DNA of 64,000 bases. Origin: Tribonema minus. Its lineage: Eukaryota; Sar; Xanthophyceae; Tribonematales; Tribonemataceae. The notes under the pieces were generated by a model. It ran no database searches and was not told where the DNA came from. It saw only the letters and a list, made by a program, of their open reading frames with translations. Below are positions 1 to 28,465 of this stretch, in pieces (position 1 is the stretch's first letter; every line of letters starts with the position of its first letter). A program made the position numbers and the translations under genes. The stretch is from the NCBI GenBank assembly GCA_017506865.1, contig JAFCMP010000514.1, positions 558,001-622,000 on the forward strand, read 5' to 3'.

Positions 1-2034
1 GGCGCGCGGGAGGTGGCAGAGGGCGAGGCGCTGGAGGTTGGGTGCGCGGCGTAGGAGGGGGCGCAGGGAGGCGTCGGTGGCGGCGGCGATGTGGGCGAGG
101 TGGAGGTCTGTCAGCAGTGCTCCGCAGTGCCGCGCCAGCGCGCCGATGCCTGCGGGGGGGGGCAAGGAGGGGGAGTGCGAGTTGCGAGTGTGGAGTCAAG
201 GTTGAATGTGTGGGGGGAATGTTATGTGAAGTGGCGGTGATGGTGCTGCTTTTGACATCAGAGCAAGGTCAGTAGCAGGAAGGCATCACTACTTCCAATT
301 TCTTGTGCAACCAAGCGTGTCACGAGGCTGGGTCATATACATGCGATGCTTGATTTCATAGTGGTGGTGTTACTGATAGCACGCTGGTGGTTTGGCGCTG
401 CCACGCAACACAAATTTCAAACCTGAAACTGTCGCGACCATAATTCGTAGCAGAAGAACACACTTCAATATGCGCGAAGTCAATGAAACAAACCTGCAGC
501 CGGCGGTGCCCGCTGCACGGCTCAACCGCCCCCTCTGCCGTCCCTCCGCCCTTGCGCGCAATACTGCACAACATACCAGCTATTCAAAAAACACATACAT
601 ACCTGCATCCGTAACGGCGACGCCGCCCTCCAAGCGCAGCACGCGCAGGTGCCGCCCCACGCGCCGCGCCGCCGCCGCCAGCGCCGCGTCCCCCACCCGC
701 ACGCAGCGCCGCACGTCCAGCGACCGCAGCGGCGGGCACGCGCCGCCTCCGCCGCCGCCGCCGCCGCCGCCGCCTCCGCCGCCGCCGCCGTCGCCAAGCA
801 GCGCGCACACGCCAGCGTCCGTCACGCGCGGCATGTCCGCGAGCGCGAGCGCGGTGAGCGACGGCAGCGCTCCGAGCGCGCCGAGCGCCGCCGCGCCGCC
901 GGCGTCCGGCAGCGCGGCGAGGCGCAGCGCGCGCAGCGCGGGGCACGCGAGCGGCAGCACGCGCAGCGTCGCGTCGGTGACGCGGGGGCTGGCGCCGAGC
1001 GCGAGGGCGCGCAGGCGCGCGACGCGCGCGTGGCGGCGGCGCCCGTAGACGACGGGCATCTCGTAGAGCGCGCTGAGGCCCTCGTCGCTCAGCAGTGCGC
1101 AGCCCGTGAGGTCGAGATTGAGCAGCGCGCCGTCGTCGGAGCGGTCGCCCAGCAGCAGCGCGGCGGCGGCGGCGTCGGTGACCTCCGCGCAGCCCGCGAG
1201 GCTGAGCGTGTGGAGGCGCGGGAGCTTGGAGAGCGCCATTACGGCGCGGTCGCGCACATGCGGGCAGCCGCTCACGTCGAGGGCTTCCAGGTTTGCGCAG
1301 CAGCGCACAAGCGTCTCTATGCCCGTGTCTGTGATCTCGCGGCAGCCGGAGAGCGCCAGCCCCAGCAGCGCGGCGCCGCGGCGGCGCGCCAGCGCTGACA
1401 GTCCGGCGTCCGTGAGCTCGACACAGTGGGATGCTGTCAGCGTCTGCAGCTGAGAGCACTGCGCCGTGATGATCTTGAGGGCTGCATCGTCGACATCTGG
1501 CGAATTTGAGATGTCCAGCTCCAGCAGCTGGTGTCCGAGCCCTCGCCCCACTGCGCCGCAGAGGTCCGCGGCGCGTTCCTCGATGCGAGTGAGCTTGAGG
1601 GCTGTGATGGTGGGATTGCATGACGCGATGTCGTCGAACACCCCCTCTGTCAGCAGGGCACCCTGCCAGCAGCTCAGGTCCACCGACTGCAGCCTCTCAC
1701 TGCTGAGGTCCTCCAGAAGCACAGAGTGCGGTATGGCAGGCTGCCTCGGCCCCGCTGCCGCTGCTGCTGCTGTGGTTGAAAGTTGACGATCTGTAGTGCG
1801 GCCATCATCGCTCAGAGAAGGAGTGACAGACCTCTGCCGCTCATGGCTAGGGCTGCTTGTCGGCGTGTCCGGATCTGTGTCCTCTTCCTGACGCAGTTTC
1901 TCCCAGGCTGGCGGCGGCACATCGTCCCCATCGCTGCCTCTGCCGTGAGACAGCGATCGCTTGCGCTTTTTGAGGGGGTTTCTTCTGCTAATTGCGGCTG
2001 CAGGCAAAGCGCCGACAGCTCCGGTGGTTCTCAT
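1..2034 (-). CDS. Leucine-rich-repeat protein, AMN1/F-box-LRR-like (3' end beyond window)
   Basis: Exon 1 runs from the ATG at 2034 to 603, where GCAG|GTATGT is a clear donor. Exon 2 starts at 149 after CCCCGCAG and stays open to position 1, so the C-terminus is missing. The split codon at the junction gives Gly and keeps the repeat pattern going (VTDAG then IGALARHC). An in-frame TGA lies just upstream of the ATG. Residues 1-100 are charged and low in complexity. From about residue 120 there are cysteine-containing leucine-rich repeats of the L..L.LSGC..ITD.G...L kind, typical of AMN1 and SCF F-box-LRR proteins, which act as protein-interaction surfaces. I see no F-box in the visible part. 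A run of 17 Gly near the 3' end of exon 1 is encoded by GGC repeats. The gene is divergent from the kinesin-2 gene. A flagellar role is possible but is inference from that pairing only. Confidence 0.85.
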
Positions 2035-2183: not shown

Positions 2184-5100
2184 ATGGAAGGCTCAGGACG
2201 TCCTAAGAGCGATGAGTGCGTCAAGGTGGTTGTGCGCATCCGGCCGCTCAGCCGGAAGGAGGTGCAGGATGGCCATTCAGCGTGAGTAATCTTGAAGACC
2301 CAATGTGTCTGATGTGTTATCGCGTGTATACACATGATGGCCGCGTGAGCAGACTACTGCAGTCGACCCTATAAGCCCTAAAGCCATTGGCTGCTTGCTG
2401 TCTCGGTGGAAGACGGCAGGCTGAGACGGTTGGAGCCTTGGTAATCCAGGCCACGGTTTGAAATTTTCACGTAGCCATGTGGTTCTGTACATCAGCCGCA
2501 TCTGCAATGTTTGCGTTCCCATCATCGGCAATACAAGTGACAGCTACGACAGACAGTGCCGTCTGTAGAAGCGTCTGGTTCTTGCATCAAGCGCGCTGGG
2601 CACCATCTGCATTTGCGTGTCCAACGTGCATGGGTCTGATGCTAGCAAGCGGCCAGCTGCGGGACCTGAATTTGCGCACACATGATGAGCGTTGTACCTT
2701 GAAACATACAAGGATACACTTCAACTTGAAGCCGTGAACTTGTTCATCTGATGGCAGCTCCGCTACTAGTAAAGTTTGAGGTGTATCATCACCACAGCCT
2801 GTTCCAGTATGTCATCTGTGTTTGCATGCTTCAAACCTCTGAAGTGGCCGTTCAGCTCATAGCACAGACCCTGAGTACCGGAACCACATCAGCTGTGCAC
2901 TCTGAGAACTTGATGGCAGTCTGGACTTCTTGGAAGTTTAAGTCAACCGGGTGTGTCCAGTGCGTGATTCAGTTTCCCAGGTGCTCTGCATGTTATCCCT
3001 GTTTGCAACAACACAAGCACTCTGCAAAGTGAAGAGTAATTGCCAACGTGACAAGTTGAGCTCTAAGGGGGCTACGAGGCCAGCACCGCAAAACCGTGCG
3101 CAAAACGCCGACAAACGCTTTCAAGTCTTTCTTGTTCTTGGTGCGCGGCACTGCCGAGTTTTGTTAGAAGCAAGCAGGCAAGATGATGTCCCGTAATCAT
3201 CTCACGCACAGCGCCGCCTCTGTGCATGCAGGCTGCGACAACTGGTTGCTGTTCTGCAGCATGCGTTGCCACAATGAATACAATGCAGATATAAACAAAA
3301 TTTTGACAGAATGAGTGCATTTTTATAATGCGGCACTCACTTGTTGCGCACTGCAGGAGCGTCACCGCGGACGGCAGTTTGCGATGCCGTGCGACAGATG
3401 CGCACCGAACTTCTCCAACCCTCAACTTCAGCCTCACACCACGTCTAGCACATTTCAGCAGCGTATTTTGTTGCATGTTTTTTGAGGAATTGTTCTGCAA
3501 AGTATCAGTGTCCAGGACACGCTGCCTGCTGTTCGCTGACGCGCTTCGCAGGGGCGCGGCATGTAGCTGAGAGCCGCGGCGAGGTGTGATGGTGGCGCTC
3601 ACAGCTTCTGCAACTTCAAGCACAGACACCGTGCCGAGCATTCAAAACAGCTTACTGTACGTCCACCAAGTGAGTCAAATGACGCCGCACTTGTTAACGC
3701 GCGCCACAGGAGCGCCACCGTGGACGAGAGCCGCGGCGAAGTCTGCGTCAAGAACCCGCGCGCCGATGATCGCGAGGCCCCCAAGTCCTTCTTCTTCGAC
3801 AGCGTTTTCGGCGATGGCGTGACGCAGAAGCGCGTGTACGAGGTGTGCGGCGCGCCGCTAGTGGAGTCGGTGTTGGAGGGCTACAACGGCACCATCTTCG
3901 CGTACGGGCAGACGGGCGCGGGGAAGACGCACACCATGGTGCGTCACCGGTTGAAGTTCACATGTTGAAGTTGATGCGTGGGTAGGAAGTGTGCGGTGCG
4001 CCGCTGGTGGAGTCCGTGCTGGAGGCTACAACGGCACCATCTTTGCGTACGGGCAGACGGGCGCGGGAAAGACGCACACCATGGTGCGTCACCAGTTGAA
4101 ATTCACATGTTGAAGTTGAGGCACGCCGCTGGTGGCCGGTGCCAAGCAAGAGTGATGTGCATGGCGCTGCCTACTCTAGGCTCTTCGCAAAACTTTCACA
4201 CTCTTTGAGGCCTGTTGCCCCTTCGCGTGCGGGCAGACGGGCGACGGGACGCACGCACACCACGGTGCGTCACCAGTTGAAGTTACGGGCACGATTACCA
4301 CCAGTACACACACGCATACTCCCCCCCCCCCCCCCAGAAGCTTGCAGAAACACTACCCTGACCCCCTCGAGCACGCTTACCACTATTACACACACACGCA
4401 TATACCCCACTTCCTCCTCCCTTGTAACCCCCCCCCCTCCCCCTTCCCCTCCCCCTTGCGCGCAGGAAGGGTACCCCGACCCCCCCGAGCAGCGCGGCAT
4501 CATCCCCAACTCCTTCCAGCACATCTTCGACAAGATCGCGCTGGCAGACAACGTGCAGTACCTTGTGCGCGCCTCCTACCTCGAAATCTACAACGAGGAA
4601 ATCCGCGATCTCCTGTCGAAAGATCCCAAGAACAGCCTGGATTTAAAGGAGAACGCCGACAGCGGCGTCTACGTCAAAGATCTGACATCGTTCGTGGTCA
4701 AGAGCGCCATGGAGATCGACCACGTGATGCAGGCGGGCAAAAAGAACAGATCCGTGGGCGCGACGCTTATGAACCAGACGTCCTCGCGCTCGCACTCCAT
4801 CTTCACCATCGTCGTCGAGTGCAGCGACCTTCACGACAAGAACGGGCACATCCGCGTCGGCAAGTTGAACTTGGTGGATCTCGCGGGCTCGGAGAGGCAG
4901 TCCAAGACGGGGGCCACGGGGGATCGGCTCAAGGAGGCCACCAAGATCAACTTGAGTTTGAGCGCGCTGGGCAACGTGATCAGCGCGCTGGTTGATGGCC
5001 GCAGTCAGCACATACCCTACAGGTGTGTCACCCAGTTGTGGATTAGTTCAAGTTGAACTTGATGGTGTGATCAGCGCGCTGGTTGATGGCCGCAGTCAGC

Positions 5101-8100
5101 ACATACTCTACAGGCGAGTCATGAAAAAAGGGGTTAGGTTAAGTACAAGTTGAACTTGATGATGGGACCAGCGCGCTGGTGGACGGCTGCAGTCAGCACA
5201 TCCCCTACAGGTGCGTCACCCGCATTGGTGTATGTTGATTTTGAAGTCAATCACTTGCAAAATGAGATTGGATTGCACCTGGCTTTGGGGAATGTGAGCA
5301 GTGCGCCATGATCGACAGCTGCGGTCAGCACACATCGTTACAGCATCAGTCGCCAGAAATCGAAATCAGTGTAAGGTCAAGCTGAACTTCATAATGGGAA
5401 GAACTCAAGCCGAAACAATTCCTTGACATTGTCAGCAGCGTGCCACGATAGACGACTGCAGCCAGCACATCCTCTATGGGCGAGTCACCGGGGGTTACAT
5501 TAAGTTCAAGTTTAACTTTTTGTATCGTAGCTGCATCGGCAGCGCGCCTGTGGATGGCCTCAGTCAGCACACCCCCTGCAAGTGCGTCACCAGGGTTTAG
5601 GACATGACAAAGTAAGTCCGTGGGAAAGCTGCAGTGCATGGTAGTAAAACTGCAAACTTGGCGCTTCATCGCGCCGGGACTCAGAGTTGACGCGCCTGCT
5701 CCAAGACTCACCTCGGTGGCAACACCAAGACAGTTATCAGGGTTGAGAACACGGTAGCCCAAGCCTGAGGCAAAGCAGCAGTGCTGACCTGTGAATTCAC
5801 GCCACATAAATGTGAATTCTCCGCATTGATCGGGCAGGGACTCGAAGCTGACGCGCCTGCTTCAAGACTCCCTTATTGGGGACATGTTGAACTAGGCCCA
5901 GCGGCAAACTTGCGGCGAAACATTGTCACTAAATGTGAATTCCCTGCTCCATCGCGCAGGGACTCGAAGCTGACGCGCCTGCTCCAAGACTCCCTCGGCG
6001 GCAACACCAAGACGGTCATGTGCGCCAACTGCGGCCCCGCGGAGTACAACTACGACGAGACCGTGTCAACGCTCCGCTACGCGAACCGCGCCAAGAACAT
6101 CAAGAACAAGCCCAAAATCAACGAGGACCCTAAGGACGCCATGCTGCGCGAGTTTCAGGAGGAGATTCGGAGGTTGAAGGCACAGCTCGCGGAGGGAGGG
6201 GGGGCGAGTGGCGCGGGGGGGAAGCACGTGATTTTTGTGGATGGGCAGCCGGTGGAGGTGCCGGCGGGGGTGGGGGCGGAGAGCGTGAGGGTGGTGCGCG
6301 AGGGGGTCAGCGAGGAGGAGTACAAGAAGCTGCAGGTGACATTGAAGTTGAGGTAGATGAGAAGCGACCGTGTTGAAGTACAGCAGAAGTACAGTAGATG
6401 TGGCATGTGAGGGTGGTGCGGGAGGGAGTCAGCGAGGAGGAGTACAAGAAGTTGCAGGTGAAGTTTGTGTTGAAGTACACTGGATGTGAGCAGCGTTAGT
6501 GGTACTACAGAGGAGATATATATGAGCGGGAGGGGGTCAGCGAGGAGGAGTACAGGAAGCTGCAGGTGAGGTTGGCGTTGAAGTAGATAAGGAGTGTCCT
6601 TGTTGAAGTACAGTGATATTGCAGGTGAGGGTGGTGTTAAAGTAGGTGCGGGGCGTCCGTGTTGAAGTACAGTAGATGTGGCGTGTGGGGGTGGTAAGGG
6701 AGGGGGTCAGCGAGGAGGAGTACAAGAAGCCGCAGGTGAAGTTGGTGTTGAAGCAGATGAGGGGCGTCCTTGTTGAAGTACAGTAGAAATTGCAGGTGAG
6801 GTTGGTGTTGAGGTAGATGAGGAGCGTCAGTGTGGAAGTACTGTAGATGCGGAGAGCGTGAGGATAGTGCGGGAGGGGGTCAGCGAGGAGGAGTACAAGA
6901 AGGTGCAGGTGAAGTTGGTGTTGCAGGTGAAATTGGTGTTGAAGTCGATGAGGCGCGTCCGTGTTGAAGTACAGTAGATGCGCGCATGTGAGCGTGTTGC
7001 GGGAGGGGGTCAGCAAGTTGGACAGGGAGCGGAAGCGCAAACCGCGCGCACAGACCGTGGACGACATGCAGCGGCTGTCAAATGCGCAACACGTCACAGC
7101 GCTCACCTCTCTTCAAGCGCACACTACATCGCGCAACTGCTAAGTGCAGCGCCGTAATTTCCTTTTGCCGCATTATCCACCAGGCGGAGGCTGACAAGCG
7201 GGAGCGCGAACTGCGGGCGCAAGCGGCAGAGGACATGCAGCGGTTATTGGATGCGCATGCGCGAACGGCTGAAGAGCGCGAGGCGCTGAAGGCGCGCCTG
7301 GAGGCGGAGGCGGCGGAGCGGCGCAAGATGGAGAAGGGCAAGGCGTCACTGGCCAGCAAGCTCAAGGCCATGGAGGAGAAGGTGAGAGGGGTTTCGACCT
7401 TTAGGTACCATGTGTTGTGCTTTGAGTTTTTGGGTGTAGGATGATGGCACTAGACTAGCTTCCCCCCCTCGCTGGAAAGTATGACCGTCAACTTCAACTT
7501 CAATTCTGTACGCACTGCTACTTCACGGCGGCGAGATCATGGACGAGGCCGTGCGCAGGAGAAACTTAAACTTGTTTCACAAGGCGTCGAGCCATTCCAA
7601 CTGACCACTTGCCGACACCCTAACAGCTGCGCCCCCCTTTCTGAAACAAATGTATGATCATCTTTTGTGCCTTGAACCTCAACTCTGCGCGCACAGCTCA
7701 TAGGCGGCGAGATCATGGACAAGGCCGCGCGGCAGGAGCAACAATTAATTATCGCAACGCATCAACTCACTCCAATGACCACGTGCCAACACCCGACCGG
7801 CTGCGCCCTCTCACCTGAACATATACGATCCTATTTTTAACTTCAAGTTCAACTCCATTCGCAGCTCATCCAAGGCGGCGAAATCATGGACACAAGGCCG
7901 CGCGGCAGGAGGCGCAGCTATATCATTGTACTTGAAGTATTAACATTTCAACTCCAACTCTACGTGCGCAGCTCATCCAGAGCAGCGAGATCATGGACCA
8001 GCTGCCCCTCCCCCCCACCTGACATGTATGATCATCCAACTTCAACTTCAATTCAACTCATTACTGAACTATAACTTCAACTTCAATGCCATTCGCGCAG

Positions 8101-11100
8101 CTCATCCAAGGCGGCGAGATCATGGACAAGGCCGCGCGGCAGGAGGCGCAGCTGCGCCAGGCGCAGCAGGAGCTGGAGCTGCAGCGCGCGCAGGAGGCGG
8201 CGCTCGCGCGCGAGCTGGCAGAGCGCGAGGAAGGCCTCGCGGATCTTGACCGCGACTTCCAAGACCTGCAGGTGACGCTCCAACTTCAAAGGTCCTCAGA
8301 CTTTATTTATGAATGATCAGACTCGATTAAATTAGACATTTGACATACAGAAGGCAGTGGTTGCACGCAAGCTGATGGAGCAAAGCGCGAGCTGGCGGAG
8401 CGAGAAAAAGGCCTTGCGGATCTGGACCGCAACTTCCAAGACCTGCAGGTGAATCTCCGCTGATATCAGAACTGTAAGTGTGCTCAGGGTGCTCTTGATA
8501 CAGGAGGGCTCGCTTGCATGCAAGTTGGCGGACCGAGAAGAGGGCGTTGAAGTTCTGGACGGTGCTTTGCAGGACCTGGGTGATTTTGGGTTAGGGTTTG
8601 GGCTAGGTTGTCAGTGCGCTGGGGCTTGAACTGTTTGACGGGCTGCAGGGTGCTACACACTCAGTACATCAAAACTCTCCTGCAGGTATGTGCTTGCAGC
8701 AGACAGTTGTGCCCTTTCTGCATTGCCAACTTCCATTGCAATTTTGCTTCATTTGTTGTACTCCCGCCATCAGACCTTGATGAGAGTTGTGATTACCATA
8801 CACAAAAGGCTTTGACCGGATGCCAAGAGCGCGACAGTTAGAGTTGGTTGCAAGTGCGGACAAATGACAATTTACCACACTCAACGACCGGGCAGCCCTC
8901 ATTGCCGTGTGAGCAGGGGCCATTTAATGGTCATGTACTTTTTATTTGACGTACTTGCATGACAGGTTAGGGTTAGGATAAGGATTGGGGTTGGGGTTTC
9001 AGGCAGCTGCATTACATATGATAAACATGCTGCCGCACTGGCACAAAGGGACACGTGTCGGTGAAGACAACCCTAACCCTAGCATTAACCCTGGCCTCCC
9101 ACACTGTGGCATCAGGTCTTGCCATGTGTACTGTACACAGGGAACAGGCGTGGTTTATAATTATTTGTGAAGTTTTTGCGCAGAGACTTGAGCACGCAGC
9201 TGCATGGTGCCATCATTTGAAATTGTTGCCTTGGAGTAGTCGACTGGCACATGGTCATTCCGGGGCCCCCTCAATCCCGCAGGAAGAGGTCGAGGTGAGA
9301 CTGCAAGCTCAAGAATACTTTCAGACGTTGACATAATCCGTACATGGGTATGCATATACTTCAGTATATATACAAGGCATGTGAGTACACACAATGACAT
9401 CACTTTGCCCCTATGATGCCCACAGGAAGAGGTGGAGGTCAAGACGCGCAAGCTCAAGAAGCTCTGGGGCAAGTACCAGGCCGCGCAGGCCGAAGTCGCA
9501 GACATCCAGGCGGAGTTCCAGGGCGAGCGCGAAGACCTGCTCGACGCGATCCGCCAGCTCAGCCGCCAGTTGAAGTTGAAGGACCTCATAATAACCAACT
9601 TTGTGCCGCCAGAAGAGGCGCGGCGCGTGGAGCGGCGCGCCGAGTGGAGCGAGGAGGCGGGGACGTGGACCATTCCGTTCCCGGAACTGGCCGGGAACGT
9701 TCTGCGGGGGCTCGTCGCGCGGCCGATCTCGTCCGAGGTATGCATGTTTCAGCGTGTGCTTGACCGCATGCATGCGGGTGACCTGATGCAGGTGCTTGGC
9801 AGTGGCAGAGTGTTAGGGTTAGGGTAAGGTTTCAGTTAGCGTGCGGCAGAGAGTCGAAGTGACGGAGAGTCAACGGTGACGCACCTTGCGAACGGCCGGG
9901 CGCCACAGCAGCGCGGGTAGCGTGATAGTGACGGTTTCGTCGGTTACAAGGAGGCATGACGTTGAAGTGACAAGAGGCAAAGTGACAGGTATCGTGATGG
10001 TGACTGGGGTCAGAAAGCTGGTACAAGATCAAGATGTATCCACGCGTGAAGCCTCGGAGCTTACAACTTCAGCTGCAGTGCGTTCTGGAGATCCAGTGCT
10101 CACACAGTACTATTCGCCTGTTTTCTTTTCACAAATACTGACCAGATGTCACCTGTTCAAATCTCACTTCAGGCACTGCGGCGCCCGGAAACGGAGTTCG
10201 CGCGGCAACGGCGCCAGGTGGATCCGAACCCCCGCTACCGTTCCGAGAACGTTCTTCAACAGGAATTGGACCCGCCGGAGCGCACGACTCAGCCATACGA
10301 GGGCCCCGGGATGGCGAGTCGCGTGGCGCCAGTGCTCGCTATGCCGCTGGATGCGGACGAGGAGGAAGTTACGTTTACCGTGGCGCAGGAGGCGGTGCCG
10401 CAGCCGTACTTGCACTACGAGAACGGCGACGCAGGTGCGTGCCTGGGTATGTAGGTTGCGATGATTGGTGTTTCCTGAGTACATGCTAATTGTGTACACA
10501 AGTGTATTGGCGGTGCTGCAGCCGTACTTAAACTACAAGAACGGCAATGCCGGTGCGTGCCTGGGTGTGTATGATGCGATGGTTGATGTTTCATGAGTAC
10601 ATGTTGCTTGTGTACACCAGTGTATTGGCGGTGCCGCAGCCATACTTGCACTATGAGAATGGAGATGCAGGTTAGTGTCTGGGTATGTAGGTTGCGATGA
10701 TTGGTGTTCCCGAGTACATGCTTGTTGTGTACAGTGAATTGCAGCCGTGGCACTTGCACTGCAAGGAATGGCATTGCAGGTGCGTGCCTGGGCATATGTC
10801 CCATGTGATGTTGCAATGATCAATGTTTCACGAGTACATGCTTGTTGTGTACACATGTGAGTTGCAGCCGTAGTACTTGCATTGTGACAGACACCTCATC
10901 CTCACCAGGAACCCAGATGACTGCCACGATGCCAGCAGTGGTGCCAACAGCAGCAACCGCAGCCACCTCTCAAACGCCTTTAGACATGCCGCACATGCTA
11001 GCCCTAACCTAACCCTAATTCTACCTGACCCTCTGGTGCTGCATACATACCCCATGTCGACCCGCGCCTGTTGTGCTCCACAATTTTGTCACAGCGCTCG

Positions 11101-11826
11101 TCCTACTTGCAGCGCTGCTCTGCTGCATTGCTGACTTAGGGTTAGAGTTGGAGTTGGCAGCAGCGCCAACAACAGCCATGGGCCCCCCAAGTAGCAGTTC
11201 ACCGGCCGTGCCATGCGCACATATTCGTGTAACGCAAACGCCCCTCAGTAAATTGGAAAATCTTACTCTATATACACTTGCGACACAGCATTCTTTTCAC
11301 AAGCAGCCTCACAAACTTCATGCGCTGGCGACCGCGGCGACGCCGGCAGACGTCGCTTACTTAGGGTTACAGTTAGGGTTAGCAGTGGCGCCAGTAGCAA
11401 CTACGGCGCCCCCCTTGCTAGCACGTCGTCAGCCCCGCCATGCGCACGGTCGTATGCTGCATGGCCCTGTGATGACTTGCAAAGTTTTGAACTATGCACA
11501 CTTGCAACACAGCACTCTTCTTACCAACAGTTTTGCAAACTTCATGCGCAGGCGACCGCGGCGACGACGGCGACAACGGCGCTAACGGCGATGCCGGTGG
11601 CCGCCCAAAAACGGCCTTCAACCGCAGCAGCGCGCGCAAGGCCGGCAGCAGCAGCGCCACCAAGCGGCCCAAGAGCGCAGCGCGGCGGCGCCGGTCGGGG
11701 GAGGCGGGGGGCGAAGAGAATGGCGGCGGCGGCGGCGGCAGCGGCGGCGGCGGCGGCGGCGGCGCCATTGAGTTCAAAGAGGATGAGGAGATGTACCCGA
11801 CAGCGCGCGGGCTTGTGAGAAAGTAG
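2184..11826 (+). CDS. KIF3B: Kinesin-2 motor subunit, KIF3B (FLA8)-like, nine exons
   Basis: Exons: 2184-2281, 3710-3938, 4466-5022, 5960-6335, 7184-7381, 8101-8271, 9426-9737, 10173-10434 and 11552-11826. All splice phases close and the sum is 2478 nt (825 aa), close to the usual kinesin-2 length. Motor domain: N-terminal KVVVRIRP; P-loop [10 protein letters not shown] at about 99-108; switch [10 protein letters not shown] at about 212; switch II DLAGSE at about 247; then [15 protein letters not shown] and the neck linker [13 protein letters not shown] coiled-coil stalk follows (exons 5-7), then a globular tail with RTTQPYEGP and a final [10 protein letters not shown]. The tail signatures and motor residues match KIF3B-type rather than KIF3A-type subunits. 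The family forms heterotrimeric kinesin-2, the plus-end motor of intraflagellar transport. A Gly-rich tract precedes the C-terminus. The introns are large for the exon sizes and carry many decayed exon-edge copies. Confidence 0.95.
3350..3605 (+). repeat. Intron 1: two decayed copies of the exon 2 5' edge
   Basis: At about 3342-3380 and about 3535-3585 the intron repeats the acceptor region and first bases of exon 2 (3710 onward): an ..ACTTGTT..GCAGGAGCG.CACCG.GGACG pattern in the first copy and GAGAGCCGCGGCGA in the second. Both have diverged and neither stays in frame. They are direct repeats in the same orientation as the exon. Confidence 0.7.
3985..4380 (+). repeat. Intron 2: copies of the P-loop exon end and of the exon 3 start
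   Basis: About 3990-4112 is a near-identical copy of the last ~100 bp of exon 2, including the P-loop codons, the donor GTGCGTCACC and the first intron bases up to TTCACATGTTGAAG. One missing G (GGAGGCTAC against GGAGGGCTAC) breaks the frame. A second, shorter and more decayed copy lies at about 4121-4285. About 4335-4375 resembles the start of exon 3 (GCAGAAACACTACCCTGACC against GCAGGAAGGGTACCCCGACC), preceded by a duplicated ACACACACGCATA segment. Confidence 0.85.
5062..5880 (+). repeat. Intron 3: five copies of the exon 3 end and two of the exon 4 start
   Basis: Copies of the exon 3 3' edge (CAGCGCGCTGGTTGATGGCC through CTACAG and the donor) recur at about 5070-5120, 5165-5220, 5295-5345, 5435-5485 and 5540-5590, increasingly diverged. 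Some keep a usable donor, for example CTACAG|GTGCGTCACC near 5212. Two copies of the exon 4 5' edge (GGGACTC.GAG.TGACGCGCCTG, CAAGACTC) lie at about 5670-5735 and 5830-5880, before the true exon at 5960. Confidence 0.85.
6408..7090 (+). repeat. Intron 4: at least four copies of the exon 4 end and one of exon 5
   Basis: The exon 4 edge GTCAGCGAGGAGGAGTACAA through (C/T)TGCAG|GTGA recurs at about 6410-6462, 6530-6570, 6685-6740 and 6850-6912, with a partial copy near 6985-7012. Several retain an intact CAG|GTGA donor. About 7014-7082 is a decayed copy of exon 5 (ACAGGGAGCGGAAGCGCAAA..GACATGCAGCGG against the true exon at 7184). Between copies the intron repeats GTTGAAGTACAGTAGAT words. Confidence 0.85.
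7518..8005 (+). repeat. Intron 5: four copies of the exon 6 5' edge
   Basis: Segments matching GCAGCTCATCCAAGGCGGCG and AGATCATGGACAAGGCCGCG of exon 6 (8101 onward) occur at about 7526-7560, 7695-7742, 7861-7912 and 7970-8000. The copies at 7697 and 7863 keep a CAG acceptor; the copy at 7890 has two extra bases that shift the frame. Each is preceded by an AACTTCAA/TTCAACT-rich stretch like that before the true exon, so the repeat unit spans the intron end plus the exon start. Confidence 0.85.
8351..9320 (+). repeat. Intron 6: copies of the exon 6 end and exon 7 start, with telomere-like words
   Basis: About 8351-8455 copies the last ~100 bp of exon 6 (GCGAGCTGGCGGAGCGAGAA through CAAGACCTGCAG|GTGA). 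About 8505-8585 is a weaker copy ending in CAGGACCTGGGTGA. About 9281-9315 copies the exon 7 start (GCAGGAAGAGGTCGAGGT, CAAGCTCAAG). In between lie TTAGGG-type words (8585-8605, 8963-8998) and CCCTAA-type words (9069-9093) in opposite orientation. Confidence 0.75.
10505..11551 (+). repeat. Intron 8: four copies of the exon 8 end, then repeats of the exon 9 acceptor region
   Basis: The exon 8 edge (GCAGCCGTACTTGCACTACG, AGAACGGCGACGCAG and the donor GTGCGTGCCTGGGTATG) recurs at about 10508-10600, 10622-10705, 10735-10815 and 10858-10895, with a unit of roughly 115 bp. Nearer the 3' end, about 11090-11270 and 11276-11551 are related tandem segments. The later ones contain the exon 9 start GCGACCGCGGCGACG and TTAGGGTT words. 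In the copy at about 11330 the acceptor CAG has become CTG. Confidence 0.8.
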
Positions 11827-21760: not shown

Positions 21761-24253
21761 ATGCCATCCGAAGCGATGGAGGTGGTGCTGCCAGCGGCGA
21801 CTGGCGACACGCCAGCTGGCCCAAATGGTCGCGCGGCCACCCCTCCTGCTGCTGCTGCCTCGTGGGCGGCCAAAGCCGCCAAAACTGCGACAACACCCCC
21901 GTCGCTTACAGCGAAGAGCAACCTGCTTCGGGAGGAGGCACGGCTGCTGCACGGCCACGATGGAGCCTACTTCACTCCCCGAGGCAGCTACACGCCAACC
22001 CCAGCCCCATCCGCCCTCACTCCAGGGCAGCTAGACCAACAGGCGAGCGAGATGTTCCACGCCGCGGAACAGGAGCAGTACTTCTTCGTGCCCCCCGCTG
22101 TCGCGGCGGTGGGGCGCCAGGGTGGAGCCGCTGCGGGCCGCCTCATGGCGATGGCGGCGCGCGTGCAGGGCCGTCCGACAGCGGAGGGACAGCCATTTGT
22201 GCCGCCGGCGGCGGCAGCCGGCACAGACCTAGTCTCGTTTACGGTGGATCCAGTCACCTGCTACACCCAGGAGCACTTGGCTGCCTTGCCGGCCAGCGTC
22301 CGCGCACTGTTAGCAGAGCTCGCGCCGGCCCGTCAGCCTCACGAGCGCGAGCGCAGCACCCCTGCGGCGGCTGCACAGCGCCGCGCCCGACTCACGCGGG
22401 GGCGCCAGCAGCTGCTAGCGGCGGCGCTCACGCACATGCACGACGCGGCGAGGGCCGGCGCTGGAGACGCTGCCTCACTTGCGTCCCTATTCAAGGGTGC
22501 AGAGACGCTGGGGCCTCTGTCGCCTCGTGATGACTTCCGCACGCTATGCTTGCGGGCGCCGGCCGCGCTCGTTGACGCGGCGCTCGGAACGGTCGGCGAC
22601 TCCGCTGACTTCAGCTTCAGCGGCTTCCGCCTGCGCATCACCCGCGCTGGTGACATGAGCGCCCCGGTCACGGTCACCGTGCGCGGCGCGCCGGCGGCGT
22701 GGTCTGCAGCGCAGCTTGCAATGCTGCTTGCGCCCGCACTCGCAGCTCCTGGCATGCCCATCGCGCCGGTGCGCTTGCGGGCGGGCGGCGGCGGCACTTC
22801 CGCCGCCTTTCTGCTGCTGGCCAGCGCTCTGAAGACCTGCGGCGTAGGCATTAACGGTGCGGCCTCATCCGCGGCGCTGGCGTCGGCGGCATCGCCAGGC
22901 GCCGCGGGTGTTTGGGAGCTAACAGTGGTCCGCGGCGTTGCGCGGCGACTCGCGCACTCGGTCCTATGCGCGGTGGACGGCACGGAAGTAGCGCTGCGGC
23001 TGCTGGGCCCTGACAATCTGACAGCGTGCCCGTCCTGCCTGCGACGGCACTTCACGCGCCCGGGTCAGCAGTGCCGGGCAACGCGCTGCGCGCACACCAC
23101 GCTCCCCGCGGCCTGCACCACGCCAGCCGCCGCCACTGGCACAGCCGCCGGTGCCCCTGCGGTAGCCACGGCTGCAGCCGCCGCGGCGGCAGCCGCCGCG
23201 ACGCAGCGTGCGCCCACCGGCGCCGCCGCCTCGCACCCCCCAGCGCCGGCGGCGACCGGCGCCGCCGCGACGGACGCTGCCGCCGCCTCGACGCCCGCGC
23301 TGGCGAGCGCGTCGCCGGGCGCCTCGCCGCCGCCGCCGGCGGCCGACGCGGACCCTGCGCAGCTGGGCCAGGAGCAGCGCATTCAGCAGCTGCAGGGGGC
23401 CATCCTGGAGGGGAGGACCGCGCGGAAGGGGCTGCAGCAGCAGGTCAAGGCACTGACAAAGCTGCTGGCAGCCTCCGAGGCGGGAAAGCGGGCTGCTGAG
23501 GCCGATCGCGACCGGTCTCTGGCAGAGCAAGTTCGTGCGGAGCGGCTGGCGGCGCAGCAACGGAGCCTGCGCGAAGGAGAGCAGGTGCGCAACGCTGCGG
23601 CGACCGCTCGACTCGAGGCGCAGCTGACAGCGGAAGCGGCGCGCGCTGCGAGCGTGGCGGTGCCGGCGGCGGACGCCGCCGGCGCGGTGGCCACCACGCC
23701 CGTGGCGGGAGACCTTGAGGCTAGCTCTGCAGCGGCTGGCGCTGCGGCGGCGGTGGCGGCGGACGGGGCAACGGCGGCGGGCGCGGCGGCGGCAGGCGCG
23801 GCGGCGGCGGGCGCGCCGCCGCCTGCTGTAGGTGCTGCCAGCGCGGCAGCGGCAGCGGCCGCAAGCGCGGCAGCGGACCCCGCGGTGGCACTGGAGGCAG
23901 CGGCGGCGCCGCGGCAGCCGCCGCGCTCTTGCTCACACGGGCGCTCGCGGTGTCGGCGCGCATCGTCGCCAGCGGCTCGGCACGGCAGCGACTGCAGCGC
24001 CTCCCCCTCGCGCAGTAGGCAGCCCCCCATGCCTGCCAGTGACAGCAGCGCGCTTATGTCCGACAGTGGCACACCCCGCGCCAGCCGCAAGCGCACGGCT
24101 GCTGAGCGCACGCCGGGCTCGGCGGCGGAACCCCCCGCTGCACGCCCCGCGCGCGGGCTGCCCCAAGGTCAGTCCGCCGCCGACCGCTTCCTCTCCACCT
24201 CGACGGCCCAGCCGCCGGCACCGGAGGGAGGCGGCGGCGCCTCGGGCCTGTAA
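21761..24253 (+). CDS. Retroelement ORF1 protein
   Basis: 830 codons from the ATG at 21761 (the frame is open from about 21617) to TAA. Residues 1-420 are Ala-rich with an ordered-looking block. A Cys/His cluster follows at about 423-443 (C-x2-C-x3-H-x7-C-x4-C). After an Ala-rich linker a predicted coiled coil spans about 537-630, then a second Ala-rich linker and a basic Ser/Arg-rich tail. ORF1 proteins of non-LTR elements are usually RNA-binding chaperones that form particles through a coiled coil, which fits. It ends 33 nt before the next ORF and in the same frame. The extreme GC and Ala bias differs from neighbouring host exons. Confidence 0.75.
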   Translation: MPSEAMEVVLPAATGDTPAGPNGRAATPPAAAASWAAKAAKTATTPPSLTAKSNLLREEARLLHGHDGAYFTPRGSYTPTPAPSALTPGQLDQQASEMFHAAEQEQYFFVPPAVAAVGRQGGAAAGRLMAMAARVQGRPTAEGQPFVPPAAAAGTDLVSFTVDPVTCYTQEHLAALPASVRALLAELAPARQPHERERSTPAAAAQRRARLTRGRQQLLAAALTHMHDAARAGAGDAASLASLFKGAETLGPLSPRDDFRTLCLRAPAALVDAALGTVGDSADFSFSGFRLRITRAGDMSAPVTVTVRGAPAAWSAAQLAMLLAPALAAPGMPIAPVRLRAGGGGTSAAFLLLASALKTCGVGINGAASSAALASAASPGAAGVWELTVVRGVARRLAHSVLCAVDGTEVALRLLGPDNLTACPSCLRRHFTRPGQQCRATRCAHTTLPAACTTPAAATGTAAGAPAVATAAAAAAAAAATQRAPTGAAASHPPAPAATGAAATDAAAASTPALASASPGASPPPPAADADPAQLGQEQRIQQLQGAILEGRTARKGLQQQVKALTKLLAASEAGKRAAEADRDRSLAEQVRAERLAAQQRSLREGEQVRNAAATARLEAQLTAEAARAASVAVPAADAAGAVATTPVAGDLEASSAAAGAAAAVAADGATAAGAAAAGAAAAGAPPPAVGAASAAAAAAASAAADPAVALEAAAAPRQPPRSCSHGRSRCRRASSPAARHGSDCSASPSRSRQPPMPASDSSALMSDSGTPRASRKRTAAERTPGSAAEPPAARPARGLPQGQSAADRFLSTSTAQPPAPEGGGGASGL

Positions 24254-24286
24254 GCCGCCGGTGCGGCGCTCCCCTCATCCACCGTA

Positions 24287-26929
24287 ATGATGTCTGACTC
24301 TACTTCAGGGGGAGCCGCACCGGCGGCCATTGCGGCAGCTGCTGCTGCAGCAGCGGCTGCCGCGGCGGGCATAGACCCTGCGCAGCCTGAGGCAGTGCAG
24401 GCGCCCGCTCAGCCTGCAACGGCTGCCATCTATCCGCGCTGCCCTTTATATGACACTGGCTGCCTCTTTCGGGTGCCAGTGCCCAAACCGCGCCTCCGCC
24501 GGAACGGGGAGGCGCACACGCTCACGGCGCAGACGTCGGCGTCGCTGGCGCTGGCGCGCCGCATCGCCACGACGCTGGCGGATCACCAGCGCCGCAAGCA
24601 TCCGAATGTGCCTGCCGACTTTCTCGCGCGTATGCAGGCGGTCGACGATGAGTGTTTGACTCTCCACCGAGCCGGCGCAGGCACCTACTACGCCGTGGAA
24701 CCCGAGCTGCTACTCTGCGCATGCGCCTCGTGCGGCGAGCCAGGGTGCGTGCGCACGAAATTGCACCAGCGCGACCACCTGTACAAGTCCCGGGAGGCGG
24801 CCGCAACGCAGCGGCCACACGGGCCCCGCGTCGCGCCTCTGCCCCCCATCCTCCCCCTCTCTACAGCCAGCGGCGGCGCGCGCGGCCCCGGCGCCCGCGC
24901 AGCTGCCGCTGTGGCTGCGGCAGGGCCAACATGGCGCAGCGCGCTTCCGCTCTGGACGCTGGCGCCGCTCTCGCCCGCGCGCGCAGCGCTTGACGACCTC
25001 TCCTTTGACTATGTTCTGCAGCAGCAACTGGTGGTCGGCCGCTGCATTCGCCTGGAGCACCACTCGGACTTCACAGCCGCCTTGACGGCCACGCTGGCGG
25101 GCCTCCGGGAAGCGCAGACGGCGGTAGCGCAGGCACACGGGGTTGAGGCAGCGGCACAGGCGTCCGCCACAGCCGGTGCATGGTGCAAGCTGCTGCATCT
25201 GCTGCCGTGCCTGCTGCTTGTACCCAACGGCTCCCTGCCGCGGGCGCACCGTTTTGCGGCCTTCGTGGCAGGCGACCTGGACCTGCTCACGCGCACAGCG
25301 CTGGCCTTCTGCCGCCGCGGCGCCGCCCGTGCGTGCACGCGCCGCGCTAGGTCTATGACGGAGGCGGCGGCGGCAGTGCGGGAGCGCGCGGCGGCGACGG
25401 CGCGGCAGCCGGGCGGCGTCGGGCGCGCCGCGCGGCTGCTGGCGGAGGGTGCTGACACATCTGCCCCCCGCGACTCCGCTACCTTGCATAAACTGCAGGC
25501 TAAACACCCAGCTGGCGATGCGTCTGCGAAGCTGGATGCCGCGGCATCGCGGGCGCGCAGCTTGGTGGCGGCGGCGGCGCTGGCGGCGCCGGCACCACTC
25601 AACTGCGCTTCATTCACGGCGGACGGGCTACGCGAGGCCATCCTCGCCACCAACCCTGGCTCGGCCGCCGGTCCCTCTGGGCTGCGCAACTCCCACCTCC
25701 AGCAGTGCGTCCGGCACACGGCGCACACGTCGGGGCGCACGGTTGACTGGCTTCTTGAGCTGCTGGCGTGGCTGGGTACCGCGGTGTACTCCACCCCCGC
25801 CGCGCTGCCCGCCCCCTTTTGGCGCCTTCACGCGGCCGCGCGCCTCAGCGCTGTGGGCGAGAAGGCGCGCCCCATCGCGTGCGGCGACACCATCCGCCGC
25901 CTGTTCGCCCGCACCTTCTGCACGGACACCCGGGACCGCGTCTCCGCGCTGCTGGAACCAATTGGCCAGTTTGGGGTCGGCGCGCGGGGGGGCGCAGAGA
26001 GAGTGGCGCTCATGGCGCAGCTCACGCATGAGTGCGGCGGCGTGCTCCTTGCCATTGACGGCAGTAATGCCTTCAACGCGCTGTCGCGCTCGGCAGTCCT
26101 CACCGCGGTGGCCGAGCATCTGCCTGGCCTGTACGGCTACGTCGAGCACATCTACGGCCCCGGCCGGGCCCCTTGGCTACAATTTGGCCTAGATGGGCAC
26201 GCCGACGCCGCCAACATCCTCTCCCAACAGGGCGTGCAGCAGGGCGACCCATTGGGGCCGCTGCTGTTCGCGCTGGCACTGCTCGGCACCATGGTGGCTG
26301 CCCGCGCCAAGTTCCCGCAACTGGCACTTCCGGGCTACCTCGATGACCTCACCACCATGACGCCCAGCTGTGACGCGCCGGTGCTCGGTCACGTTGGCCG
26401 CGCGTTCTGCTTCATACAACAGGCGCTGAGCGAGCTCAACATTCAGGTCAACGTCACGAAATGCGCGGCGCTGGTGCCGGCCTCAGGCGGCGCCCGCGAG
26501 CGCGCCGCCGCCGTCTTTGCCGCCGCCAATGTCCCCGTACCAGTATGTGACGACGGCATCACGCTGATGGGGGTGCCGGTCGGCACCGAGGGCTTCGTGC
26601 GCGCGCAAGTGGCGGCGACCCTTCGTGCCCCCGGCACCGACCGCCTGGTTGCGGAGCTTGTGCAGATGGAGGATGTGCAGGCTGCCTTCTCCATTCTGCG
26701 TCTTGCCGTCCCCGCCCGCGCAGGGCATGTCTCGCGCAATACAGCGCCATCCCTAACGCACGAGGAGCTACGGCGCTTCGACGCCATCACGCTAGCGGCC
26801 GTGGCCGCGCTGGCGCAGGAGCCATCGGCGGGTCTTACGCCGCCGGCCCACCAGGGCGCGCCGGCGGCGGGTGACGATTGCCGCGGCCCGCCGGCGGTTT
26901 CGGCGGCGGCGGCGCCGCCCTCTCTGTAG
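24287..26929 (+). CDS. Retroelement reverse transcriptase ORF
   Basis: 880 codons. The N-terminal region has a C-x5-C...H-x5-H finger-like pattern (about residues 48-105) and a second Cys/His cluster (CACASCGEPGC, H-x4-H), as in R2-type elements. RT blocks: a fingers region NPGSAAGPSGLRNSHL; ARPIACGDTIRRLFAR; motif A DGSNAFNAL with Asp at about 591; motif B QGVQQGDPLGPLLFALAL at about 650; motif C YLDD at about 684-687 instead of the common F/YADD. All three catalytic Asp residues are present, so the domain could be active. The ORF ends with TAG at 26927 in a low-complexity linker; the downstream endonuclease continues in the same frame. Confidence 0.88.
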   Translation: MMSDSTSGGAAPAAIAAAAAAAAAAAAGIDPAQPEAVQAPAQPATAAIYPRCPLYDTGCLFRVPVPKPRLRRNGEAHTLTAQTSASLALARRIATTLADHQRRKHPNVPADFLARMQAVDDECLTLHRAGAGTYYAVEPELLLCACASCGEPGCVRTKLHQRDHLYKSREAAATQRPHGPRVAPLPPILPLSTASGGARGPGARAAAAVAAAGPTWRSALPLWTLAPLSPARAALDDLSFDYVLQQQLVVGRCIRLEHHSDFTAALTATLAGLREAQTAVAQAHGVEAAAQASATAGAWCKLLHLLPCLLLVPNGSLPRAHRFAAFVAGDLDLLTRTALAFCRRGAARACTRRARSMTEAAAAVRERAAATARQPGGVGRAARLLAEGADTSAPRDSATLHKLQAKHPAGDASAKLDAAASRARSLVAAAALAAPAPLNCASFTADGLREAILATNPGSAAGPSGLRNSHLQQCVRHTAHTSGRTVDWLLELLAWLGTAVYSTPAALPAPFWRLHAAARLSAVGEKARPIACGDTIRRLFARTFCTDTRDRVSALLEPIGQFGVGARGGAERVALMAQLTHECGGVLLAIDGSNAFNALSRSAVLTAVAEHLPGLYGYVEHIYGPGRAPWLQFGLDGHADAANILSQQGVQQGDPLGPLLFALALLGTMVAARAKFPQLALPGYLDDLTTMTPSCDAPVLGHVGRAFCFIQQALSELNIQVNVTKCAALVPASGGARERAAAVFAAANVPVPVCDDGITLMGVPVGTEGFVRAQVAATLRAPGTDRLVAELVQMEDVQAAFSILRLAVPARAGHVSRNTAPSLTHEELRRFDAITLAAVAALAQEPSAGLTPPAHQGAPAAGDDCRGPPAVSAAAAPPSL

Positions 26930-26938
26930 GCGGCGGCA

Positions 26939-28465
26939 GTGGCATGGGTACGCGGCGCCGACTGGGGTGGCGAGGCCCCAGTGACGCTACCAGCACATCA
27001 GCAGGTACGCGTGCATCTGCGGCTGGGGAGTGGTGGCTTTGGCGTGCTGGGCGCGGCGCCCCGTGCATGTGCCGCATTTGCTGCACGTTCCCTCGAGTGC
27101 ATGGGGCCGGCACTGGCGGCATTTCCAGTCGCGGCACGCAGCCGCGTCCTAGAGCATGCCCGCTATGGCTTCACCTTCACCCAGATAGCTACCTGCCTGC
27201 AGCAGCTGCGCAGCGGCAGCGATGAGGCTGCAGCGGCCCTCGCACTGCTCCTGCCCACAGTCTGGTACCAGGACTGGCGCCAGGACGACGGCGCATGGCG
27301 GGCGCTGCGCGATCTGCTGCAACGGGCAGGCGGAGCTGCGGGGCCGGGCATGCGGACTCGCGCCGGCGCGCGCCGCGCTGCTGCGCCAGCGGTGGCGCGC
27401 GAGCCAGGCTCTGCCCAGGCCCCGCCGGCCGCCGTGCTGCCGCGGCGTCAAGCGGCGCTATCACGGGTGCTAGACGCAGCGCTCGCCGCCACGCAGCTGC
27501 GTCGGCTTGAAGCAGCAAATGCGTTGGAAGCAGTCGCGGCGTGGCGCAGCGGCGCCTCTAAGGGGGCCATGGGTTTCTTGGCGCAATTGCCGAGCACTGA
27601 CCCAGCGGAGACCATGTCCCCGCCGGAATTCCGCGAGACGCTGCGGCGCCACCTGGGCGTGGAGCGCCCCGCCCCCGCTGCGGCGCGGTGCCCCAAGTGC
27701 CATAGACCAGTGGACTCGGGTGCCCACCTGCGCCGCTGCACACAAGGGCTTAACGTCACGCGACACAACTTGCTCGCAGACGCGCTCTTTCAGCTGCTCA
27801 AGCAGGTGGCCCACCTCCGCGGTCTCGACCGGGACACCCTTGCCCCCTTCCGCCGCTACGCGGCGCGCCACGGGTTCAACAAGTTCATGGACATCGTCTT
27901 TGGCAGCAACCAGGTCTGCCTTCCAGTCCCTAAAGTGCAGCCGAGCGCCGACGCGGTAGCAGCAGGCCGGTGCACTAAACTGCGCGGCGGCTTTGAAGTA
28001 GCTTGTTGCATAGACATCACCATACGTGACAGCTCATGCCCCTCCCGCCTCCGTCAGGCTCAGGGGGGCGCGCGCGATGTGCAGCGCGTGCTTGAATCGG
28101 CTTCGCAGGAAAAGATAGACACAATGTCATAGTATTACGTAGTCTCAGGGGCCCTGGACCCCACTACACACACCCTATTTTCCGCAGCCTTTGACCACTT
28201 CGGCGCTATGTCACGCGACACCCAAGCGCTGCTACACGCACTCGCCGAGCAGAGCTCGCAGGGCAGCTACAATCTCGCGCAGCGCGTTGCCTTCTGGCGC
28301 CGCCGCACCTCCCTCGCGCTACAGCGCGCGCTCACACGTGTCGTGATCGACAACTGGAACGCAGTCATTGCCCCTGATGGCGACGTCAGCGCTTACCGCC
28401 GCATCGCACTGTTGCAAGTGCCGCGGCCCTCGCCGGCCAGCGCCGAACCGCCGGCCCTTCCGTAG
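26939..28465 (+). pseudogene. Retroelement zinc-knuckle/endonuclease segment with in-frame TAG
   Basis: The segment continues the RT frame after TAG 26927-26929. Open blocks are 26939-28132 and 28133-28465, separated by TAG at 28130. The knuckle CPKCHRPVDSGAHLRRC lies near 27689, followed by NVTRHN. The endonuclease region has an SADAV block and CIDITIRD (about 27945-28030), in the positions of the PD...D core of restriction-like endonucleases. The piece after the second TAG (FDHFGAMSRDTQALLHALAE, SLALQRALTRVVIDNW) is the C-terminal block also found in the dispersed fragments. Homology across both stops suggests one ancestral polyprotein, now broken by two nonsense codons, unless the stops are read through. 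Confidence 0.7.

Follow-up and report, generated by a model that had tools for sequence, protein, structure and literature searches.

The kinesin-2 gene in a 64,000-nucleotide stretch of the genome of the xanthophycean alga Tribonema minus (contig C511, JAFCMP010000514.1, positions 558,001 to 622,000 of the forward strand; hereafter the window, in which the coordinates of this gene are given) has introns that carry repeated copies of their own flanking exon edges. The copies lie in direct orientation next to the splice junctions that they resemble, are local in origin, have decayed to differing degrees and recur in other genes of this organism. There is a strong probability that they are junction-spanning minisatellites akin to the "mirages" of amphioxus, which were reportedly first described by Canestro et al. 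in 2002. The assembly from which the window was taken comprises 158 Mb in 554 contigs, and the analysis covers a small part of this genome.

The gene lies on the forward strand and consists of nine exons (2184..2281, 3710..3938, 4466..5022, 5960..6335, 7184..7381, 8101..8271, 9426..9737, 10173..10434 and 11552..11826) that give 825 codons in frame and are separated by eight GT-AG introns. Each exon rests on the reading frame and on profile alignment, except that the outer end of exon 9 is taken from the reading frame only. Spliced alignment to a profile of 99 other kinesin-2 proteins, from which the T. minus protein was left out, was carried out with an aligner written for this analysis; it picked the same splice sites for all eight introns, never those of a copy, and differed from our model solely at the two outermost ends, the alignment being local. 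Along its entire length the product shares 98% identity with an annotated T. minus kinesin-like protein (P0001), which equals our model minus 15 residues in exon 4. These residues are encoded by a 45-nt stretch that begins with GT and ends with AG (6258-6302), and which may be a tiny intron or an annotation choice. After P0001, the next named relatives come from Chrysoparadoxa and brown algae, while the best-scoring Protein Data Bank neighbour of the motor domain is human-type KIF3B. Judging from the reading frame, homology and the annotated protein, the junctions in use in this gene appear to be the outermost ones.

When the window was compared with itself, the direct repeats of the kinesin-2 gene were found to gather around its exon edges. 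A first-pass annotation of this DNA had described one to seven such copies in each of introns 1-6 and 8, and alignment of the adjoining exon edges to each intron bears this out, with 30 copies in these seven introns and zero in intron 7. We then scored the outermost 60 exonic bases of each exon edge against its own intron and against 200 dinucleotide shuffles of that intron. Twelve of the 16 edges beat all 200 shuffles, so that the matches exceed those expected of shuffled sequence, and for 11 of these 12 the adjoining intron also scored higher than any other intron of this gene. At the remaining one, the downstream edge of intron 2, the match is C-rich (16.8 versus 17.0 elsewhere). The signal is concentrated at the very edge of the exon. 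The share of 40-nt windows with a z score above 4 falls from 0.75 at a depth of 0-20 nt to 0.50 (20-40 nt), 0.19 (40-60 nt) and 0.13 (60-80 nt), and is 0.03-0.07 deeper in the exon and 0 past 240 nt; most of the signal thus lies within 60 nt of the edge, and past 80 nt it is close to background. Within an intron, the upstream part harbours the copies of the upstream exon's end, with their own donor flank; those of the downstream exon's start, with their acceptor flank, lie towards the downstream end.

The copies are all on the forward strand and were placed by edge alignment. Intron 1 holds a decayed copy of the exon 2 start with its acceptor flank (3338..3438; edge z of 4.9 over shuffles) and another of the exon 2 start (3539..3588). 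In intron 2 there are two copies of the exon 2 end with donor, at 3973..4113 (100/111 exonic identities) and 4221..4284, and a doubtful, C-rich copy of the exon 3 start (4319..4376), for which other introns score as well. Between positions 4130 and 4232 the same intron contains a short dispersed element of about 90 nt, resembling a short interspersed nuclear element by habit; among the matches listed for the intron 2 sequence elsewhere, in at least 39 places, 31 fit this stretch at 73-84% identity. The first copy in intron 3 is one of the exon 3 end whose donor GT is now GC (5067..5121; 46/47 exonic identities), followed by further copies of the exon 3 end, two of them with donor (5141..5233, 5507..5591) and two of them old (5258..5343, 5422..5489), and by two copies of the exon 4 start (5663..5737 and, with acceptor, 5807..5873). 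Five copies of the exon 4 end with donor occupy intron 4 (6407..6477, 6526..6594, 6685..6761, a short one at 6777..6825, and 6849..6928), together with an old copy of the exon 4 end (6988..7035) and a copy of exon 5 that starts 9 nt inside the exon (7021..7088). This last copy lacks an acceptor, so that the wording of the first-pass annotation, in which such copies include it, does not hold here. All four copies in intron 5 derive from the exon 6 start, one with its flank (7490..7561) and three with acceptor (7671..7738, with 42/42 aligned exonic identities; 7838..7919, with 52/53; and 7941..8001). Intron 6 contains a copy of the exon 6 end with donor (8385..8458), an older copy of this end (8501..8583) and a copy of the exon 7 start with acceptor (9265..9315), and intron 8 contains two copies of the exon 8 end with donor (10509..10581, 10627..10700), an older copy of the same end (10741..10810) and a copy of the exon 9 start with its flank (11299..11360). 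Repeat units make up 4, 76, 61, 88, 89, 17, 0 and 77% of introns 1 to 8, respectively, and 48% over the whole gene. The description of these introns as built from copies is therefore apt for introns 2, 3, 4, 5 and 8 (61-89%), but not for introns 1, 6 and 7.

The same copies occur well beyond this gene. A search with PF00225 yielded 132 exon matches at about 44 loci, and 16 further kinesin genes were modelled. In these and the window gene, introns were surveyed if they measured 150 nt or more and were flanked by exon pieces of 45 nt or more, for a total of 82 introns and 67.9 kb in 17 genes. Direct copies of a flanking edge were found in 44 of the 82 introns, as 24 donor-side and 31 acceptor-side arrays, and every one of the 17 genes has at least one such intron. 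Controls run through the same pipeline gave 0/82 for inverted copies, 0/164 for shuffled introns and 3/82 for the exons of another gene. If the window gene is excluded, along with two loci (L039 and L040) that had been chosen once repeats were seen, edge copies are present in 31 of 67 introns. Copies of exon sequence that stop short of the edge were seen in 5 of the 82. Introns with edge copies are longer than the others (median 926 versus 597 nt, p = 2e-5), and repeat units account for 41% of the length of these 44 introns; the smallest offsets of the edge arrays are mostly about 60-230 nt, with some larger. In four segments of dynein heavy chain genes, 11 intervals separate neighbouring exon cores, and 9 of them contain junction copies; these intervals were judged from the core edges with the letters checked at each, and a small exon may be concealed in two of those in L062. 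Junction copies are present in both introns of one proteasome gene. The phenomenon therefore spans several gene families, although unevenly, as discussed below. When a 148-nt unit of the window gene was searched for across the genome, it matched itself, two copies in its array and nine other places, all of the latter being kinesin loci matched in the coding part, which indicates that the copies arose locally.

The intron ends themselves are of biased composition. Among 96 introns with a length of 300 nt or more, G, GT and GGTTAG are abundant at the donor ends and C, CA and AACCCT at the acceptor ends, and the frequency of TTGAAG and CTTCAA is about five times that expected from base composition. 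A stem bridging the two ends of an intron was considered and rejected, as the two ends of an intron are no more complementary to each other than the ends of different introns (z of -1.9).

A young array is found at the dynein locus L059 (reverse strand, C531:161700-166200), where seven copies of the acceptor junction precede the real one. The spacings are 123 nt and then six times 161 nt. Relative to the real junction unit, five of the copies have 1, 3, 1, 3 and 3 differences in about 161 nt, suggesting that they are recent, and two older copies have diverged. Two unit variants alternate, as if a two-unit block had been duplicated, and the outer units are the diverged ones. All seven upstream acceptors keep their AG, and reading on from each of them meets a stop within 25 codons. 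An assembly error is possible for this near-identical array, whereas for the many diverged arrays it can be excluded.

The decay of the copies was followed in 83 kinesin copies with an alignable junction. Identity to the real junction is 88% in the exonic part and 74% in the first 50 intronic bases. The donor GT is kept in 29 of 38 copies and the AG in 37 of 45, figures that overstate retention because copies in which the junction is wholly lost fall outside this set; the dinucleotides disappear at about the rate of neighbouring sites. The first-pass annotation had divergence rising with distance, but this proved to be a tendency only, and no steady increase was seen: within arrays, the farther copy is the less alike in 36 pairs and the more alike in 19, and for the 30 copies of the window gene the rank correlation of similarity with distance is -0.25 (p = 0.17). 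Copies of the window gene show 102 synonymous and 133 non-synonymous differences and 2 stops, a ratio of 0.77; about 0.72 would be expected if the copies are neutral and the exon changes only at synonymous sites, at the same rate. Across the kinesin genes, the copies do not duplicate an exon in full, with both splice sites and an intact frame; they are partial, each having a single splice site and 20-70 exonic nt, and 28 of the 33 indels in their exonic part break the frame. The copies thus decay without coding constraint and are not constrained alternative exons. In several arrays (those of the L059 locus, L062 and window introns 3-5) the exonic part has been preserved far better than the intronic part of the same unit, and gene conversion from the exon is a possible cause.

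These observations suggest the following mechanism. A segment of about 60-230 bp lying across a splice junction, in which the exon typically contributes 20-70 nt and the adjoining intron the rest, would be duplicated in tandem, and the array would then be enlarged by further rounds of what was probably slippage or unequal exchange. The outermost junction, joined to the whole exon, would remain in use, so that new copies fall within the intron and the intron lengthens while the protein is unchanged. Copies would erode by neutral mutation as new ones join them, and both ends of one intron may come to contain copies of several ages. The decoy junctions are presumably ignored since splice sites pair across exons (exon definition); a half-exon whose single splice site lacks a partner at exon distance would go unrecognised and be harmless. 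The gene model, the profile alignment and the kinesin survey all agree with the earlier proposal of serial tandem duplication across splice junctions, with the introns enlarged and the frame kept.

Several findings weigh against this interpretation. First, in three CCT genes (L056-L058), surveyed with limits of 100 nt for introns and 35 nt for exon pieces, only 1 of 24 introns has an edge copy, a 21-bp match, and one further copy of 37 bp stops 3 nt short of the junction. The models of these genes match P0121 over 484/484 residues and the transcriptome protein P0241 (CCT1) over 497/497. The difference between kinesin and CCT introns is marked (p = 9e-6; for introns of at least 500 nt, 40/66 versus 0/8, p = 0.001), and edge copies are therefore not universal. 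The suggestion that the process may be genome-wide is thus upheld in part, by the 17 kinesin genes, the four dynein segments and the proteasome gene, but not by these three. A rule that housekeeping genes are spared was considered for the CCT gap and is countered by the proteasome gene. Second, when all kinesin copies are pooled (104 pairs), there are 258 synonymous and 241 non-synonymous differences and 7 stops, a ratio of 1.07 versus 0.76 expected; this excess may come from shared ancestry of the copies or from gene conversion from the exon. Third, the exonic part of some copies has changed far less than the intronic part, as in intron 5, where the 42/42 exonic identities noted above compare with about 78%. 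Finally, the choice of the junction in use was judged from the reading frame, homology and an annotated protein.

Given junction-spanning minisatellites, it can be asked if the junction is a preferred site of duplication. Of 79 arrays, 55 include an edge, as do 33 of 40 at 85% identity or more and 16 of 20 at 90% or more. Random placement would put 11.7 of the 79 arrays at an edge on present intron lengths, and 19.9 on introns stripped of their arrays. The strongest alternative holds that tandem duplication was uniform, that exonic duplications were purged, that introns were short at the start (100-200 nt), so that most tolerated duplications happened to include an edge, and that slower decay of the exonic part made edge copies more visible. 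In simulations of uniform duplication from introns of this starting length, the share of edge arrays reached 0.66-0.94 at low divergence, equal to or above that observed, but the same settings gave a repeat coverage of 0.6-0.95, above the 0.17 observed in short and 0.34 in long introns, and uniform settings with realistic coverage gave an edge share of just 0.2-0.35. With random indels included, the best-fit distance was 21.9 for uniform duplication (33 settings), 12.4 for a fivefold excess at junctions (34 settings) and 9.8 for a tenfold excess (32 settings). The grids were coarse and small, with 99 indel settings in all, and the simulations point towards an excess at junctions without proving it; together with the position null they make uniform duplication rather unlikely. 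We tentatively raise the possibility, to which we give somewhat less than even weight, that Tribonema junctions are duplication hotspots and that serial junction duplication, hidden by exon definition, is a main route of intron growth genome-wide.

A second alternative is that templated repair or gene conversion, and not plain tandem duplication, places exon-edge sequence in the intron. This would account for copies in which the exonic part is much closer to the source than the intronic part, such as those in intron 3 of L042 (36/37 versus 32/49), intron 5 of L051 (45/45 versus 32/47) and window intron 5. The younger arrays, however, repeat whole units, including the intronic flank, at a fixed period (161 nt in L059; also window introns 2 and 8), the intronic and exonic parts are equally identical in the young L059 array, and a slowly changing source exon explains part of the gap without conversion, so that we regard this alternative as improbable. 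Very improbable is that the copies are retained for use, as alternative or poison exons or as spare splice sites that tune expression: the kept GT and AG dinucleotides, the almost unchanged exonic parts of some copies and the pooled synonymous excess would suit such a role, but each copy offers a single splice site with a short piece of exon, most indels break the frame and seven stops occur, the dinucleotides are lost about as fast as neighbouring sites, and the window gene appears to use its outermost junctions.

An Rfam scan of the window gave no match. Elsewhere in the window, a codon-use exon scan revealed no other multi-exon gene clear enough for testing. By eye, an open frame resembling leucine-rich repeats (616-1716, reverse strand) adjoins the kinesin gene, and long GC-rich open frames on the forward strand (21911-28132), one of which has a reverse-transcriptase-like stretch, form a retroelement candidate.

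The first-pass annotation regarded this manner of intron growth as not known to be a standard mechanism, a view that has to be qualified, as junction-spanning tandem repeats have already been described in amphioxus as mirages (PMC3087553). In amphioxus, minisatellite-like tandem repeats extend across exon-intron boundaries in Adh3 and in the globin genes BflGb6 and BflGb9, among others (PMC3087553), with PGBD5 added and troponin C mentioned in another paper (PMC3902484). Like the Tribonema arrays, mirages are direct tandem repeats that span the boundary and are found at both 5' and 3' boundaries, and many of their units keep the AG or GT, as do those counted above (GT 29/38, AG 37/45). Mirage units measure 10-160 bp, and those of BflGb6, at 150-160 bp (PMC3087553), are comparable in size to the 161-nt unit of dynein L059. 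Array homogenisation is described for mirages; in Tribonema turnover is seen in one array, that of L059, with its alternating variants and diverged outer units. Mirage splicing is said to be normal. In Tribonema, the annotated protein P0001 fits the outermost junctions; the transcript-derived protein P0241 (CCT1) belongs to a gene almost without edge copies. The two systems differ in several respects. Tribonema is a stramenopile alga in which about half of the kinesin introns are affected, as opposed to single genes, and its copies are of many ages, down to about 70% identity, and make up a large share of intron length. Mirages show haplotype length polymorphism and somatic instability (PMC3087553), while the Tribonema arrays are known here from one assembly.

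Other systems show more limited likeness. In the model of Rogers, an intron is born between two copies of an exonic AGGT (PMC4974935, PMC3443670), and in the potato RdRp case the duplicated stretch crosses the intron-exon boundary (PMC4974935). As in Tribonema, gene segments with splice signals are duplicated in tandem, but there a new intron arises, whereas here existing introns are lengthened. The AGGT model further predicts that sequence like that of the downstream exon lies in the 5' part of the new intron, and sequence like that of the upstream exon in its 3' part; in Tribonema the reverse holds at every copy-bearing edge, so that the copies do not fit intron gain of the Rogers kind. Human genes of segmental duplications carry internal tandem repeats at exon-intron boundaries (PMC2812944), and these too are boundary minisatellites that alter intron structure, but their units are about 30 bp, recent, confined to few paralogues and often associated with alternative splicing. 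Introners resemble the Tribonema arrays in that introns are affected throughout a genome (PMC9860276), but they are dispersed mobile elements, whereas the Tribonema copies are local and edge-specific, on the basis of the one unit searched genome-wide. No report of such arrays in Tribonema or brown algae was found in the literature searched, outside of which lay the T. minus genome paper and subscription papers. The arrays thus have the same anatomy as mirages; what is new is the lineage, the far higher density, the layered ages, the share of intron length that they occupy and, as their chief effect, the lengthening of existing introns.

Intron lengthening is usually ascribed to transposons and drift. 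In Tribonema, a good part of intron length can be traced to the intron's own edges, in layers of differing age, and if the junctions are indeed duplication hotspots, these introns would hold a dated record of their own enlargement. Boundary-spanning repeats of this kind, so far reported from lancelets in the literature searched, arose independently in an alga, where they are much denser. The arrays also provide natural test pieces for splice-site choice, such as the dynein L059 intron, in which there are eight nearly identical acceptor regions and only the last leads into an open frame.

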